Source: Catenisphaera adipataccumulans (GTDB taxonomy: Bacteria > Bacillota_I > Bacilli_A > Erysipelotrichales > Erysipelotrichaceae). Taken from it: a stretch of DNA of 64,000 bases. A program made the translations under genes and the position numbers. The stretch covers positions 310,001 through 374,000 of the forward strand of contig NZ_JACHHK010000001.1 of assembly GCF_014202755.1 (NCBI RefSeq), written 5' to 3'. This document shows positions 33,778-43,907 of this stretch, piece by piece (the stretch's first letter is position 1; every line of letters starts with the position of its first letter). Below the pieces are notes generated by a model. It was not told the origin of the DNA and did not search any database. It worked only from the letters and a program-made list of their open reading frames with translations.

Positions 33778-35712
33778 TTATTCTTCGTTCGGAACGACTT
33801 CGATCAATGCATCACCATGCTTGACCTCACCGTCTGCCAGTTTCTTCACTTCGGCATACGAAGGCGTATTGGTGACGATGACCATGGTCGTATCATCGTA
33901 TCCGGCTTTTTTGATCTTTTCTGAATCAAAGGTTCCCAGCACATCGCCGGCTTTGACGCGTTGGTTGGCCTGCACTTTCTGGGTGAAGCCTTCCCCTTTC
34001 ATGTTGACTGTATCGATTCCAATATGGATCAGTACTTCGGCACCGTCATCGGATTTCAATCCATAAGCATGACCCGTCTCGAAGGCAACTTGGATGATGC
34101 CGGAAACAGGTGCGTATACGGTGTTGCCGCTTGGCTGAATGGCAATTCCTTTACCCATCGCTTCGCTGGCGAATACCGGGTCATTCACGGTCGTGATATC
34201 AATCGCTTTTCCATCAGCCGGTGCCTGGATCACTTCATCAGTCGGCGCTGCCGAAGCGACGTCTTCCAATGCAGGTTCGTCTTCCAACGTTTCTTCCATT
34301 TTCTCTGTTTTCTGTGTAACAGTTCCCATTTCTTCATCGCTGTAGCCGAACATGTAAGTCAGGATAAACGATACAACGCAGGTCAGTACGACCATGAAAA
34401 TATATTTGAGCAGCTGTCCGTTTAAGTACAGAAGCATACCTGGAATGATCGTGATGCCAAATCCAGTACCAGCCAGATTCAAGATCGAAGCTAACCAACC
34501 GCCGAAAGCACCGGCAATCAGACCAATCACAAATGGTTTACCATAACGTAAGTTAACACCGAAGATAGCAGGCTCGGTAATACCTAAACTAGCTGAAATC
34601 GCAGCTGGGAAAGCCAAGGCTTTTAATTTCTTTGATTTGGTTTTCACACCAACTGCCAGTGTTGCACCAGCCTGTGCGGTCATGGCAGCCGTAATGATCG
34701 CATTCAGCGGGTCTTTGCCGTCCGCTGCGATCAGCTGTGCCTCCAACAAGTTGAAGATATGATGCACACCAGTTACGACGATGACCTGATGCAGACCGCC
34801 GATGATCAAACCAGATAAACCAAACGGCAGATTCAGGACAAATCGAGTACCAGCCAAAATGTAGTTTTCCACTGTATGGAAGATTGGTCCGATCACGAAC
34901 AATGCCAGGATGGACATGATCAGGAAGGTCACAAACGGAACGACCAATAAATCCAATACATCCGGCACATGTTTATGCAGCCATTTTTCTAACTTCGCAC
35001 CGCACAGACCGACGAAGAAGGCCGGCAGGACAGAGTTTTGATAACCGACGACCGGAATAAAGTTAAAGAAGTAAATCGGTTTGGCAGCACCGCTAGCTAC
35101 ATCCCAGGCGTTCGGTAAATTGGAGTTGACCATCATCAAGCCCAATACAATACCGATGACCGGGTTGCCGCCGAAGACACGGAAGGCTGACCAGCAGATC
35201 AATGCCGGGAAGAAGGCAAATGCCGTATCGGTCAGGACCAAGGAATATGTATAGAAGTTGGATGCCTCAAACGCTTTCTGCGTTGTTCCGAAAACGGCTA
35301 AGACCGTATCATTATCGATGGCACCGCGCACACCCATGAATAAACCAGTGGCAACGATAGCCGGCAGGATCGGAACAAAGACATCACCGAAGGTACGAAT
35401 GGCGCGCTTGAACCAGCTGCCTTGTTTTGCGGCTTCCGCTTTCTGTTCGCTGGTCGAACTGGTCGGCAGTCCCAGCTGAACGACTTCATCATAAATTTTG
35501 TTTACCGTACCGGTTCCGAAAATGATCTGATATTGACCGGCCGTAAAAAAGGCTCCCTGTACTTTATCGATATTTTCGACTGTTTCCTTATCGATTTTTT
35601 TCTCATCATTGACCATGATGCGCAGTCGAGTGGCACAGTGAGCGACGCTTCGAACATTGTCACGGCCGCCGACCGCGTCGATGACCGCTTTTGCGATTTG
35701 TGTGTTATCCAT
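33778..35712 (-). CDS. scrA: Sucrose-type PTS transporter, EIIBCA
   Basis: A 644-residue three-domain PTS permease. EIIB (1 to about 85) has the phospho-Cys C26 in AHCATRLR. EIIC (about 105-460) is a multi-helix channel with GVHHIFNLLEAQLIA and ITEPAIFGVNLRYGKPF. EIIA of the glucose type (about 495-644) has the phospho-His H563 in LIHIGIDTVNMKGEGF. Sequence alone allows sucrose, beta-glucoside or trehalose; the divergent GH32 hydrolase and LacI regulator argue for sucrose. It imports the sugar as the 6-phosphate. Confidence 0.9.
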   Translation of the reverse strand: MDNTQIAKAVIDAVGGRDNVRSVAHCATRLRIMVNDEKKIDKETVENIDKVQGAFFTAGQYQIIFGTGTVNKIYDEVVQLGLPTSSTSEQKAEAAKQGSWFKRAIRTFGDVFVPILPAIVATGLFMGVRGAIDNDTVLAVFGTTQKAFEASNFYTYSLVLTDTAFAFFPALICWSAFRVFGGNPVIGIVLGLMMVNSNLPNAWDVASGAAKPIYFFNFIPVVGYQNSVLPAFFVGLCGAKLEKWLHKHVPDVLDLLVVPFVTFLIMSILALFVIGPIFHTVENYILAGTRFVLNLPFGLSGLIIGGLHQVIVVTGVHHIFNLLEAQLIAADGKDPLNAIITAAMTAQAGATLAVGVKTKSKKLKALAFPAAISASLGITEPAIFGVNLRYGKPFVIGLIAGAFGGWLASILNLAGTGFGITIIPGMLLYLNGQLLKYIFMVVLTCVVSFILTYMFGYSDEEMGTVTQKTEKMEETLEDEPALEDVASAAPTDEVIQAPADGKAIDITTVNDPVFASEAMGKGIAIQPSGNTVYAPVSGIIQVAFETGHAYGLKSDDGAEVLIHIGIDTVNMKGEGFTQKVQANQRVKAGDVLGTFDSEKIKKAGYDDTTMVIVTNTPSYAEVKKLADGEVKHGDALIEVVPNEE

Positions 35713-38997: not shown

Positions 38998-40504
38998 TGA
39001 ACCCCAAAAGTTGGACAAAATAAGTTATCTAGATTCTAAGGCTTGATTTCTTGCTTCGCAAGGAGTCAGGCCTTTTAATCTGACCTGGATCCTTTCTGTA
39101 TTGTAATAGGTGATGTATTCTTCCATCGCTGCTTTCAGCTCCTCCAGGCTCTTAAATTCATATTCATGTCCATAGAACATCTCGGTCTTCATCTTTCCAA
39201 AGAAATTCTCCATCACACAGTTATCCAGGCAATTGCCTTTTCGTGACATGGACTGTATGATTCCATGCTCCTTCAAGATGGCTCGATACTGTTTCATTTG
39301 ATATTGCCATCCTTGATCACTATGTAAGATCAAACCATCGAATTTCGTATGACCAGCGAATGCCTGCTCAAGCATATCAGTTGTCTGTTTAAAGTCAGCA
39401 CTTGATGAAATATTGTATGAAATGATCGCATGATCATAGAGATCCAGGATCGGTGAAAGATAGAGCTTGCCGGCCGCAATGTGGAATTCGGATACATCCG
39501 TCGTCCAGATCTGGTTGCTTCTCTCGGTGTTAAAGTCACGAACATAAGCTATTGTATGATCTTCTTCATCCACTTTTGGATGGAGCAGACGATTCGGCAC
39601 TGTCTCATTGAAATTCCCTCTATAAGATCTATATTTGGCACGCGGTGTGATACCGTAAAGGTCCATTTTCTTCATCAGGCGTTTCATCGTCTTATGATTC
39701 ACATGAAAACCGTCTCTCTGAAGCTGCAGCACGATCCGGCGATAGCCATATCGTCCTTTATTCTTTTCGAAGATCTCTTTGATCCTCTTCATCAGTTCGG
39801 CATATTTCCGCTCATCCGGATCCTGATGAGACAGCCAGTAATAGTAAGTGGACCGGCTGATCTGGGGCAGTGAAAGATCGGCCGCAATGGCTTCTAGGAT
39901 AAAGTCGACCGGCCGTTTCAGTTCATGCCTTAGTTCGGTCACTGCTCCCGCGATTTCTTCTTTTCCCGGTTCTCTTTTTCCGTAACCAAGGCATTTAATT
40001 TTTTTAAGTATGCGTTTTGTATCGTAAGAATCTCGTTCTGCCTGCGAAGATCCGCAATTTCTTTCTGCAGGGCTTCGTTCTTCTGAGGAAGATCCTTCGG
40101 TTTCTTCTTTGCCATGGGTTTTCCTGCCTTTCTTCTTTTCAATAACATTATACCCGTTAGCGATATATTCTTTCACCCATCGTGGTAAAGTTCCCTGATT
40201 GGAAAGGCCAAGATCCAATGATACGTCTCTCATGGATTCATGTCCGACAAGTACACGTTCGATCGCTGCTTTCTTGAATTCCGGCGAATAATAGGTCCAA
40301 GAATGTCGGATCTGTTCAATGCCCCAGCGGTCTGCTAAATGGACCATGTATCGAATCGCTTTATCAGCCATTCCGTATTCGCGGGATAACTGGTAAATAG
40401 AATCATGTTCATATTTCCATTTATTGTATATTTCTACTTTTGTCTCATATGCATATTTCATAAAGAAAAACCCCTCCAGTTGGTCGTCCAACTTTTGGGG
40501 TTCA
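38998..40504 (-). mobile_element. IS3-family insertion sequence, 1507 bp
   Basis: Perfect 19-bp terminal inverted repeats TGAACCCCAAAAGTTGGAC (38998-39016, and inverted at 40486-40504) have the TG...CA ends of the IS150-like branch of IS3. The transposase is on the minus strand. No target duplication is visible: the flanks are GGG on the left and CTT on the right. The transposase orfA part carries a frameshift. Confidence 0.92.
39025..40461 (-). pseudogene. IS3-family transposase (orfA frameshifted, orfB intact)
   Basis: The helix-turn-helix part (MKYAYETKVEIYNKWKYEHD to TLPRWVKEYIANGYNVIEKK) and the DDE integrase part (STYYYWLSHQ, IWTTDVSEF, LILHSDQGWQYQ, MSRKGNCLDNCVMENFFGKMK) lie in the same frame. 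The leucine zipper between them (LQKEIADLRRQNEILTIQNAYLKKL) is in the +1 frame at 39939-40148. One extra base in the A4 run at 40119-40122 explains this: without it, HTH and zipper join as GRKPMAKKK. A normal IS3 -1 slippage site, A-AAA-AAA, remains before orfB. The start has a GGAGGGG site. OrfA is probably broken and the element silent unless slippage restores it. Confidence 0.85.
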
Positions 40505-40530: not shown

Positions 40531-41625
40531 TTATGCATCCAATTTCAGATCGCCCGGTTTTACTTTTCCTGCTCTGACCACAAAATGATGAATGAGCGGG
40601 GTCAGCACCGCCGGAAGCACAAAACAGATCAGGATCAAGCCCAGCCAGTCCCAGGCCGTGATAGCTGCTTTAGCACCGGAAGCCACATCAGCAGCCCAGC
40701 CAGTATACACGCCGATCGGGCCGACCAATCCGCAGGTTCCCATACCGGAAGAAACCGGTGTACCGTTCATCTGCATTTTGAAAACACAAGTCGCAACTGG
40801 TCCGGTAATTGCCGAGGTAATGATCGGTGCTGTCCAGATCCAAGGATTGCGGACGATGTTGCCCATCTGCAGCATCGAGGTGCCCAAACCTTGTGAGACC
40901 AAGCCGCCCCAACGGTTTTCCTTAAAACTGATGACCGCAAAGCCGACCATCTGTGCACAGCAGCCCGCAACCGCAGCACCGCCGGCTAAACCAACCAATC
41001 CGAAGGCTGCACAAATCGCGGCCGAGGAAATCGGCAGCGTCAGCGCAATACCGACCAGTACAGATACTAAAATACCCATCCAGAATGGCTGTAAATCTGT
41101 CGCCCACATGATCAGCTGTCCAAGCTGCATCGCAAATGAACCTAATGCCGGTGCCCACCATGCGGAAAGCAGCGTACCGACCGCAATGGTCACCAGCGGC
41201 GTCACCAAAATATCGATCTTTGTTTCTTTGCTGACGGCTTTGCCGATCTCAGAGGCAAAGATCGCGACAAACAAGACGGCTAACGGCCCGCCGGCTCCGC
41301 CCAATGCATTGGCACAGAAACCGACAGCGGTTAATGAAAATAAGACCAACGGCGGACAGTGCAGCGCATAGCCGATCGCGATCGCCATGGCCGGTCCGCT
41401 CATGGCCGAAGCCAGACCGCCGACCGTATACTGTGTGCCGGCAATGGTTGCGACGGGTTCCATCAATGCCGCAATATGCAGCTGAGCACCGAATGTATCG
41501 ATGATCGTTCCGATCAGCAGCGAACAGAACAACCCCTGTGCCATGGCGGACAATGCGTCAATGCCATAGCGATGCAAAGAAATCTCAATGTCTTTTCGTT
41601 TTAAAAACGCTTGAAATGAATTCAT
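40531..41625 (-). CDS. PfoR-like EIIC-family membrane protein, possible vitamin transporter
   Basis: 364 residues, 9-10 hydrophobic helices, rich in Gly and Ala. It matches the PTS EIIC-like family that includes PfoR of clostridia (EPVATIAGTQYTVGGLASAMSGPAMAIAIGYAL, and MGTCGLVGPIGVYTGW). There is no EIIA or EIIB domain and none nearby, so phosphotransfer is unlikely. It is divergent from niaR, and a dyad covers its predicted transcription start, suggesting control by NiaR and a role in niacin-related uptake. That role is inference only. The start at 41625 has GGGAGG; the longer frame upstream is rejected. Confidence 0.75.
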   Translation of the reverse strand: MNSFQAFLKRKDIEISLHRYGIDALSAMAQGLFCSLLIGTIIDTFGAQLHIAALMEPVATIAGTQYTVGGLASAMSGPAMAIAIGYALHCPPLVLFSLTAVGFCANALGGAGGPLAVLFVAIFASEIGKAVSKETKIDILVTPLVTIAVGTLLSAWWAPALGSFAMQLGQLIMWATDLQPFWMGILVSVLVGIALTLPISSAAICAAFGLVGLAGGAAVAGCCAQMVGFAVISFKENRWGGLVSQGLGTSMLQMGNIVRNPWIWTAPIITSAITGPVATCVFKMQMNGTPVSSGMGTCGLVGPIGVYTGWAADVASGAKAAITAWDWLGLILICFVLPAVLTPLIHHFVVRAGKVKPGDLKLDA

Positions 41626-41640
41626 ACATCCTCCCTCAGA

Positions 41641-41713
41641 TGTCTTGACACCTGACATGACAATTCTAGCGAATTCAAAGATCACTGTCAAGAATGTTTA
41701 TTTGCGGTATAAT
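41641..41713. promoter_or_regulatory. Divergent promoter/operator region of the EIIC-like gene and niaR
   Basis: Minus promoter: TTGACA (41686-41691), 17 bp, TAGAAT (41663-41668), driving the EIIC-like gene. An imperfect 22-bp dyad with halves TGTCTTGACA and TGACATGACA at 41641-41662 covers its predicted start site. Plus promoter: TATAAT at 41708-41713, whose -35 region falls on the same 41686-41691 box. The dyad is the candidate NiaR operator. Confidence 0.7.
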
Positions 41714-41719
41714 ATGGGC

Positions 41720-42238
41720 ATGAATGCATCACAACGAAGAGAACGCATTGTCAACGCGCTGGATGGTTCTGACCGTCCGATCAGTGCTGCAGCGCTGGCA
41801 AAACAATACCATGTCAGCCGGCAGATCATCGTCGGCGACGTTGCACTGCTTCGGGCATCCGGGCACAATATCCTGGCGACCCCGCGGGGCTATATTCTGG
41901 AACATCCGGATCAGCAGAACGTATACCGGATCGCCTGCCGGCACAATGCCGAACAAATGCAGGAAGAGCTTTATGCGATCGTCGATGAAGGCTGCACCGT
42001 CATCGATGTGATCGTTTCCCATCCAATTTACGGCCAGCTGACCGGCCAGCTGAATTTATCCAACCGGCATGATGTCGATGAATTTGTGCGCAAATCACGG
42101 GCAAGCAACAGCACTCCGATCAGCGCATTGACCGACGGCATCCACCTTCATACGCTGCGCTCACCGGATCCCGGCGCAGTACAGCGGGTGCGCACGAAAC
42201 TGAAAGAAATGGGGATCCTTTACACCAATGAAACATAA
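41720..42238 (+). CDS. niaR: Transcriptional repressor of NAD biosynthesis NiaR
   Basis: 172 residues. N-terminal HTH (about 5-58; RPISAAALAKQYHVSRQIIVGDVALLRASG) and C-terminal 3H domain, with metal or ligand-binding His in DVIVSHPIYGQLTGQLN, NRHDVDEF and GIHLHTLRSP. NiaR binds nicotinate and represses NAD synthesis and niacin uptake genes. There is no Shine-Dalgarno; the ATG at 41720 is 6 nt after TATAAT. An in-frame ATG at 41714 directly abuts the -10 box and is unlikely. Confidence 0.92.
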   Translation: MNASQRRERIVNALDGSDRPISAAALAKQYHVSRQIIVGDVALLRASGHNILATPRGYILEHPDQQNVYRIACRHNAEQMQEELYAIVDEGCTVIDVIVSHPIYGQLTGQLNLSNRHDVDEFVRKSRASNSTPISALTDGIHLHTLRSPDPGAVQRVRTKLKEMGILYTNET

Positions 42239-42276
42239 AAAAATGTGTCGAAGCTTTCAGCCTCAACACATTTTTA
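42236..42276. terminator. Bidirectional terminator between niaR and the adhesin gene
   Basis: AATGTGT (42242-42248) pairs with ACACATT (42266-42272), extended by an imperfect inner stem; A-rich on the left and T-rich on the right, so it works both ways. Confidence 0.75.
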
Positions 42277-43794
42277 TTATGCCCGCCGTTTGCGGAGGAA
42301 GAAGATCAACATTGCAGATCCTGCCAGCAATAATAGGAATGCCTCTGTATTGGTTTCTGTGCCTGTTTGTATACTGGCGGTTTTCTTCTTTGTGCTTACG
42401 CGGGTACTTGTTTTTGTGATAGTTTTTTGTTTAGACGGTTTATCTGACTTTTCCTGTTTTGGTGTTTCTTCCCTTGTTTGAACATCGTTTTCTACCGTGA
42501 TCTCGGTACCGGTGTTTCCGCCCAAGGTCACATATTTGCTCTCACTGGAAAGGATGACACCATCCGGCGCGCTGATTTCAACCAGTTCATAAACTCCGTC
42601 ATTCAGCTGTGCGATCGTTGCCAGACCATCGCTGTCGGTCGTAATATCGACATAGTCAGCACCATCGTACCAGCCCAAGACACGGGTATGGTCAGCTGCG
42701 CTTTTTACTTTATAGATGCGGAATGTCACGTCTGAAATCGGTGTGTCGGTCCCGGTTTCAACTTTGTGAATTTGTATGGTTCCCTTTGGAAGTCCGTTGA
42801 TGTTTGCGGACGAAGTCGGGATCGTGACTGTTTTCGTATGAGTTTCTGATTCCGTACTGCCAGAATCGGTCGTATAATTCATTGAAACCTGATTCCGAAT
42901 GGTATTGCCCTGCACTACGTAATTCTCATCCGTATCCGTCGTAAATACAATGATGGCATTGTAGCCATTATCGGCACTCAAAATAGATGCATCCATCGTA
43001 ATGGTAAGCGTTCTTGCGCTTTCATCATAGGACCACGTATGGCCAGCGCCCGTAAAAGTTTCTAGGGAGCTATAACCGCTCCAGTTTCCTTGAGGATCAC
43101 GAAGACCGCACCGGACAAAGGTCGGATTGGAAGTGCCTTCCGGAAGCGTATCCGTAATTGTGATGGTATCGGTCAAATTAGTCCAATAACTATCATTGAC
43201 ACCGATGCTCCAACGGATCTTATTATTTTCACCGCCGATCCAGTCTCCGTCTTTCCCGCCGAAGCCAGGAACCACGCCCGTTCCTGTTGTTGATTTGACT
43301 GTAATGGAATCACTGTGATCACCAGCTGTCACGCTGATTTCATGATCGCTGTCGGTCGTATTGGACGCTAAAAGTTCAAACGAAAAACTGCCGTTGACAT
43401 GTTGGAACTGTTCGACAAGTTCATTGAACGTCGCGGTCGCTCCTGTCGATGTGATGACGACCTGACCGACGGTCTGCTGCTGGTTGTTTTCATCCGTGAT
43501 CTGTAAGTCATGCGTTGCTTGATATGCCGTCAATGAAACGTTTTCCGTGGTCGACGGCCAGCTGACCGTGATCGTATCGCCGCCTTGAATATCCGTATTC
43601 GCTGCATCTTCATCAAACGTGATGGTCGCCGTGACACGATTTGCATTATTCACTTCGGAAGAACCATCACTTGAATTGATAACGGTCACATCGGTCACAC
43701 TGGTATTGTCTGCTGCCTGCGTTTCCATTTTTGCACCGTACAGCAGGAAACACGTGAATAAGAACCCGCAAATAAATATAAACCTCTTTTTCAT
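42277..43794 (-). CDS. Cell-wall-anchored adhesin with adhesin-like N-domains and a Cna-B repeat
   Basis: 505 residues. Signal peptide at 1 to about 27. Two N-terminal beta-sandwich domains (about 30-320) in the style of Sdr/Cna ligand-binding regions: GGDTITVSWP and SWSIGVN-like KIRWSIGVNDSYWTNLTD. Then one Cna-B domain (about 330-420; KGTIQIHKVETGTDTPISDVTFR and YELVEISAP, with residues suited to an isopeptide bond), a Lys/Thr-rich wall-spanning stretch, and a sorting signal ASIQTGTETN, a hydrophobic helix and RKRRA. The motif reads IQTG where LPxTG is classical. No sortase gene is in the window. AAGGAGG supports the start. Confidence 0.85.
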   Translation of the reverse strand: MKKRFIFICGFLFTCFLLYGAKMETQAADNTSVTDVTVINSSDGSSEVNNANRVTATITFDEDAANTDIQGGDTITVSWPSTTENVSLTAYQATHDLQITDENNQQQTVGQVVITSTGATATFNELVEQFQHVNGSFSFELLASNTTDSDHEISVTAGDHSDSITVKSTTGTGVVPGFGGKDGDWIGGENNKIRWSIGVNDSYWTNLTDTITITDTLPEGTSNPTFVRCGLRDPQGNWSGYSSLETFTGAGHTWSYDESARTLTITMDASILSADNGYNAIIVFTTDTDENYVVQGNTIRNQVSMNYTTDSGSTESETHTKTVTIPTSSANINGLPKGTIQIHKVETGTDTPISDVTFRIYKVKSAADHTRVLGWYDGADYVDITTDSDGLATIAQLNDGVYELVEISAPDGVILSSESKYVTLGGNTGTEITVENDVQTREETPKQEKSDKPSKQKTITKTSTRVSTKKKTASIQTGTETNTEAFLLLLAGSAMLIFFLRKRRA

Positions 43795-43907
43795 CCTAAC
43801 CCTCCTTTCTATCACCAATTATTATAATATTAGATGCTTAAATATTTATTTTCCATTATACCTTTTTTGAATACTAGTATATGTAAACTTTATAGATATT
43901 AATGGAC
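43795..43907 (-). other. AT-rich upstream region of the adhesin gene
   Basis: A TATAAT at 43855-43860 and a second one near 43825 are possible -10 boxes; a TTTACA lies 21 bp before the first. No confident promoter can be named. Confidence 0.35.

Follow-up and report, generated by a model that had tools for sequence, protein, structure and literature searches.

The window, a 64,000-nt stretch of the Catenisphaera adipataccumulans genome, contains a gene for an EIIC-fold membrane protein that is divergent from niaR, a gene encoding a niacin-responsive repressor (Table 1). The initial annotation described this pair and remarked that the EIIC-like gene lacks any PTS A or B partner, and both observations hold: no EIIA or EIIB is fused to the protein or encoded in the genes bordering it, and PTS genes close by are limited to one complete, self-sufficient EIIBCA at 33778–35712, 5 kb away. 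An IS3-type transposase occupies 39025–40491 as a single unbroken 488-aa frame, the frame starting 39 bp past the EIIC stop codon. Beyond the niaR terminator lies a large surface-protein-like gene (42277–43818) whose C-terminal end is hydrophobic and positively charged.

Table 1 Features of the divergent EIIC–niaR locus, in window coordinates
Feature	Coordinates	Strand	Remarks
EIIC-fold membrane protein gene, 364 aa, proposed niacin transporter	40531–41625	−	PF13303 PTS_EIIC_2, E = 1.6e-89
Predicted NiaR operator TCAGATGTCTTGACACCTGA, 20 bp, over predicted EIIC transcription start	41636–41655		Conserved in relatives
Operator core TGTCTTGACA, TGT-N4-ACA	41641–41650		Identical to core of S. pneumoniae PnadC site R1 (PMC5343564)
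Second, imperfect core TGACATGACA, one mismatch	41653–41662		12 bp from first core
EIIC promoter −10 box TAGAAT	41663–41668	−	
EIIC promoter −35 box TTGACA	41686–41691	−	
niaR promoter CTGTCA-17-TATAAT	41685–41713	+	−35 overlaps EIIC −35
niaR, niacin-responsive repressor, 172 aa	41720–42238	+	HTH_11 + 3H domains; divergent from EIIC
Hairpin terminator, 3′ of niaR	42239–42275		

The PF13303 profile covers residues 23–361 of the EIIC protein, its full length, at 300.6 bits against a cut-off of 28.9. An AlphaFold2 model (mean pLDDT 85.5) matches glucose-type PTS EIIC structures with Foldseek probabilities of 0.98–1.0, TM scores of 0.50–0.55 and non-significant E-values of 0.05–0.2, which suggests a moderate likeness to the glucose-type EIIC fold; a sequence search of solved structures returned no relative. 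The GITEP substrate motif of glucose-type EIIC proteins occurs in 0 of the 53 rows examined and is present in the EIIBCA of the window, which served as control. EIIC relatives in a plasmid collection, checked for an informative product name, were labelled 'PTS sugar transporter subunit IIC' or a close variant and nothing more specific. Part of PF13303 is also annotated as a PfoR 'regulator', a label that presumably derives from old genetics.

The protein encoded by niaR combines HTH_11 (E = 2e-12) and 3H (E = 9e-34) domains, and its best matches among solved structures are the NiaR-family proteins 9ebr, 1j5y and 7cv0 (E-values of 1e-37 to 1e-39). Alignment to T. maritima NiaR demonstrates conservation of the metal and niacin ligands His75 and Glu83 together with the HLH two-His pair, the ligands compared being those of published NiaR structures (PMC7713382).

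The EIIC promoter proposed in the initial annotation, TTGACA-17-TAGAAT, is exact, matches consensus at 11 of 12 positions and is the best of nine in the 4-kb region scanned. Its −35 hexamer overlaps that of the divergent niaR promoter almost fully (41685–41691), and the polymerases of the two genes therefore probably compete. The initial annotation also placed a repressor site, drawn as an imperfect 22-bp dyad at 41641–41662, over the EIIC start. An operator is indeed predicted over this start, but the dyad was mis-drawn: 148 22-mers of the window reach its score of 8 of 11 symmetric pairs, so that symmetry alone is no evidence for an operator. The conserved element is instead the 20-bp palindrome TCAGATGTCTTGACACCTGA at 41636–41655, the best-scoring local palindrome with 8 of 10 pairs symmetric, and its centre falls at 41645/41646 rather than in the middle of the dyad. 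The supposed halves of one operator are each a neighbouring NiaR core, TGTCTTGACA being exact and TGACATGACA deviating by one mismatch. The imperfect core is a possible second dimer site, and a weak core 12 bp upstream of the main core is seen again in several relatives.

Type I NiaR operators contain a TGT-N4-ACA core (PMC7713382) embedded in a promoter palindrome of roughly 22 bp (PMC7713382, PMC5343564), and the consensus of aligned sites in relatives is near TACAGGTGTCAAGACACCTGTA, in agreement with the published type. Site R1 of S. pneumoniae PnadC (TACAATTGTCTTGACAATTGTA) exemplifies this core; mutation of R1 was without effect and a second site, R2, is functional (PMC5343564), so R1 counts as a predicted member of the NiaR site family. 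The C. adipataccumulans genome has 8 TGTCWWGACA sites, a number near the 5 of a reversed-pattern control. The seven sites other than the EIIC operator were read individually and judged to be chance or unrelated occurrences, and the EIIC gene is the sole plausible NiaR target found in this genome. One chance NiaR-like core (L142:1501) lies elsewhere in the genome, at the 5′ end of an apparent TPP-riboswitch leader that precedes a ThiT-like gene.

To define conservation of the operator core (hereafter the box), we examined the 200 bp preceding EIIC for a core that was exact or had at most one mismatch in 80 named loci encoding close EIIC relatives; 79 of these were scored, 12 of them with niaR no more than about 3 kb away. 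An exact core precedes EIIC in 10 of the 12 loci with niaR nearby and in 2 of the 67 without (P = 3e-9), and when one mismatch is allowed the counts become 12 of 12 and 10 of 67. Shuffled upstream sequence yields an exact core in 0.2% of trials and, when one mismatch is tolerated, a core in 6.7%. The distance from the EIIC −10 hexamer to the start of the core is 9–15 nt in most loci, placing the core over the transcription start, and this position just 3′ of the −10 box recurs in EIIC orthologues across Bacillota. Over about 90 EIIC loci, niaR is by far the commonest neighbour and the only one exceeding a handful, and no PTS gene is a recurrent neighbour. Among relatives the box tracks the presence of NiaR; one genome (G027) has NiaR and an EIIC gene with no box upstream. 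Many close orthologues in Lachnospiraceae (75–80% identity) have neither a box nor niaR nearby, indicating that the EIIC family is often outside NiaR control. All box-bearing EIIC relatives, including that of the window, fall in one clade with support of 100/100, members of which are widespread in Lachnospiraceae. The window's EIIC nests within a Lachnospiraceae-rich clade, a placement that suggests horizontal transfer.

Gene arrangements were compared across 98 genomes from the family and order of C. adipataccumulans, and both the niaR–EIIC pair and the box recur in these relatives. The pair occurs in divergent (as here), co-directional (two genomes) and convergent (one genome) orientation. 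In five genomes the box precedes EIIC with niaR elsewhere, and in the three of these whose niaR upstream region was read, that region has no exact box, a pattern that is not merely niaR autoregulation. The box also precedes nadA in four genomes, pncB in three, and, beside niaR in many genomes of one group (f2), a gene for a membrane protein of about 190 aa. We regard this protein as NiaX on the basis of size, position and the preceding box; it has no match among Pfam or NCBIfam models, and we refer to it as NiaX-like. In Candidatus Evtepia faecavium, pncB, niaR, the box and EIIC are consecutive on one strand. A wider search of the class returned mostly distant EIIC paralogues with no box or niaR, with the exception of two genomes from another family. 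In these, EIIC lies after niaR, both encoded proteins are diverged (35–41% identity for EIIC, 36% for NiaR) and TGTATATACA is kept just past the EIIC −10 box. When a longer operator pattern was applied to whole genomes, the count per genome was not clearly above the reversed control, and the analysis was thus restricted to sites adjacent to recognizable NAD or niaR genes.

The NAD gene content of C. adipataccumulans is consistent with dependence on an imported precursor. Its 97.5% complete assembly encodes no NadA, NadC, PnuC or NiaX-like protein; a weak QRPTase_C match was rejected as NadC, the protein being a barrel of the OMP-decarboxylase/HUMPS family. A single pncB is followed by an isochorismatase-family pncA-like gene. 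With this salvage pair kept and the other functions missing, the bacterium is predicted to be incapable of NAD synthesis from scratch and should need import of niacin or a close precursor. NiaR is present and NadA missing in 30 of the 98 genomes, and each of the 30 has exactly one of a NiaX-like protein (21 genomes) or a member of the EIIC clade (9 genomes), none having both and none neither (P = 7e-8, a value that overstates independence as the 98 genomes are phylogenetically related). The EIIC set used here is the 100/100-supported clade holding every box-bearing EIIC, and distant PF13303 paralogues that coexist with a NiaX-like protein fall outside it.

Together, conservation of the box, pairing with niaR in three orientations, the pncB–niaR–EIIC cluster and the replacement of the NiaX-like gene by EIIC provide strong support, at the level of comparative genomics, for NiaR control of EIIC and for a niacin-related role. 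Both had been suggested in the initial annotation, and the pncB link and NAD gene content point the same way for the second. We consider it likely that the EIIC-like gene encodes a NiaR-controlled importer of niacin (nicotinate and/or nicotinamide), trapped by PncA/PncB with no PTS phosphorylation, and this protein is very probably the niacin uptake route of this bacterium. With niacin plentiful, niacin-loaded NiaR would bind the palindrome immediately 3′ of the −10 box and keep the transporter gene from being transcribed; scarcity of niacin would lift this repression, and imported vitamin would be converted by PncA/PncB to nicotinate mononucleotide. From these patterns we infer NiaR binding at this site, transport as such, the identity of the substrate and uptake free of phosphorylation, and a phosphorylation-free carrier coupled to PncA/PncB trapping would be the simplest reading.

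NiaR regulons may include transporters for other precursors, such as pnuC in S. pneumoniae (PMC5343564), and the EIIC protein could accordingly import a different NAD-related compound, such as nicotinamide riboside, quinolinate or another pyridine. We regard this as unlikely, given that the genome has no NadC for quinolinate, that its salvage route is PncA–PncB, and that EIIC alternates with the NiaX-like gene and is tied to pncB in Candidatus E. faecavium. If the protein were instead a genuine sugar PTS IIC supplied with EIIA and EIIB from elsewhere, and NiaR control were incidental, this would suit the PF13303 name, the EIIC-like fold and the presence of PTS genes in the genome; ptsP, HPr and a fructose PTS do lie a few genes from EIIC in Lachnospira eligens. 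The lack of a recurrent PTS neighbour across the EIIC loci, the missing GITEP motif and the joint pattern of box and NAD genes make such a role very unlikely.

Repression by niacin-loaded NiaR suits uptake, not export, and auxotrophic genomes need an importer, of which no PnuC or NiaX-like example is present here; the chance is slimmer still that the EIIC protein exports niacin or acts as a sensor in the membrane, as the PfoR 'regulator' annotation of part of PF13303 might imply. Finally, the two divergent genes share the region that holds the box, which is 70 bp away from the niaR start and could in principle only autoregulate niaR with EIIC a bystander. This explanation is barely credible, as in other genomes the box separates niaR from a co-directional EIIC, or precedes EIIC while niaR is located elsewhere, and the niaR upstream regions in those genomes mostly have no box.

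Beyond this locus, we favour, with some reserve, the broader view that a distinct EIIC-fold clade left the PTS altogether and took on vitamin B3 import in many gut Bacillota, exchanging places with the unrelated NiaX while the regulator stayed the same. In a survey of human gut genomes, just 25% of niacin auxotrophs had confidently detected known B3 transporters (PMC6593275). If the EIIC clade carries niacin, this gap would shrink, the misleading annotation 'PTS sugar transporter subunit IIC' would be corrected, and the EIIC fold would be seen to work as a plain vitamin carrier.

The locus resembles the type I regulon of NiaR (YrxA) in its HTH_11 and 3H protein, conserved ligands and TGT-N4-ACA core within a long palindrome, and differs in that EIIC is the only plausible target found in this genome. 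The EIIC protein is similar in model-based Foldseek probability and TM score, with weak E-values, to PTS EIIC proteins of the glucose superfamily (PtsG and V. cholerae EIICGlc), but unlike these it has no local EIIA or EIIB, no GITEP motif and a regulation linked to NAD. The NiaX-like gene, a putative counterpart of the niacin ECF S component NiaX, shares with EIIC the same regulator, box and place beside niaR in sister genera, whereas its product of about 190 aa belongs to a different family that EIIC replaces in this clade. Named niacin transporters under NiaR control are NiaP, NiaX and NiaY (PMC5343564, PMC7713382, PMC6593275), the last assigned in 2008 (Rodionov) by co-regulation in five Bacilli and Clostridia genomes, as cited in PMC5343564. 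A literature search, with the 2008 NiaY paper beyond its reach, found no text tying NiaY, BH3254 or PfoR to a protein family. The type member of NiaY may be BH3254. Likened by description only, NiaY and the EIIC protein are both NiaR-controlled membrane proteins, occur in Bacilli and Clostridia and have an assigned role in niacin uptake, and a NiaR-controlled membrane protein linked to niacin salvage is what the genomic evidence suggests here. NiaY may thus belong to the same family as the EIIC protein, and the idea of a NiaR-controlled niacin transporter of this kind may already exist as the predicted NiaY.
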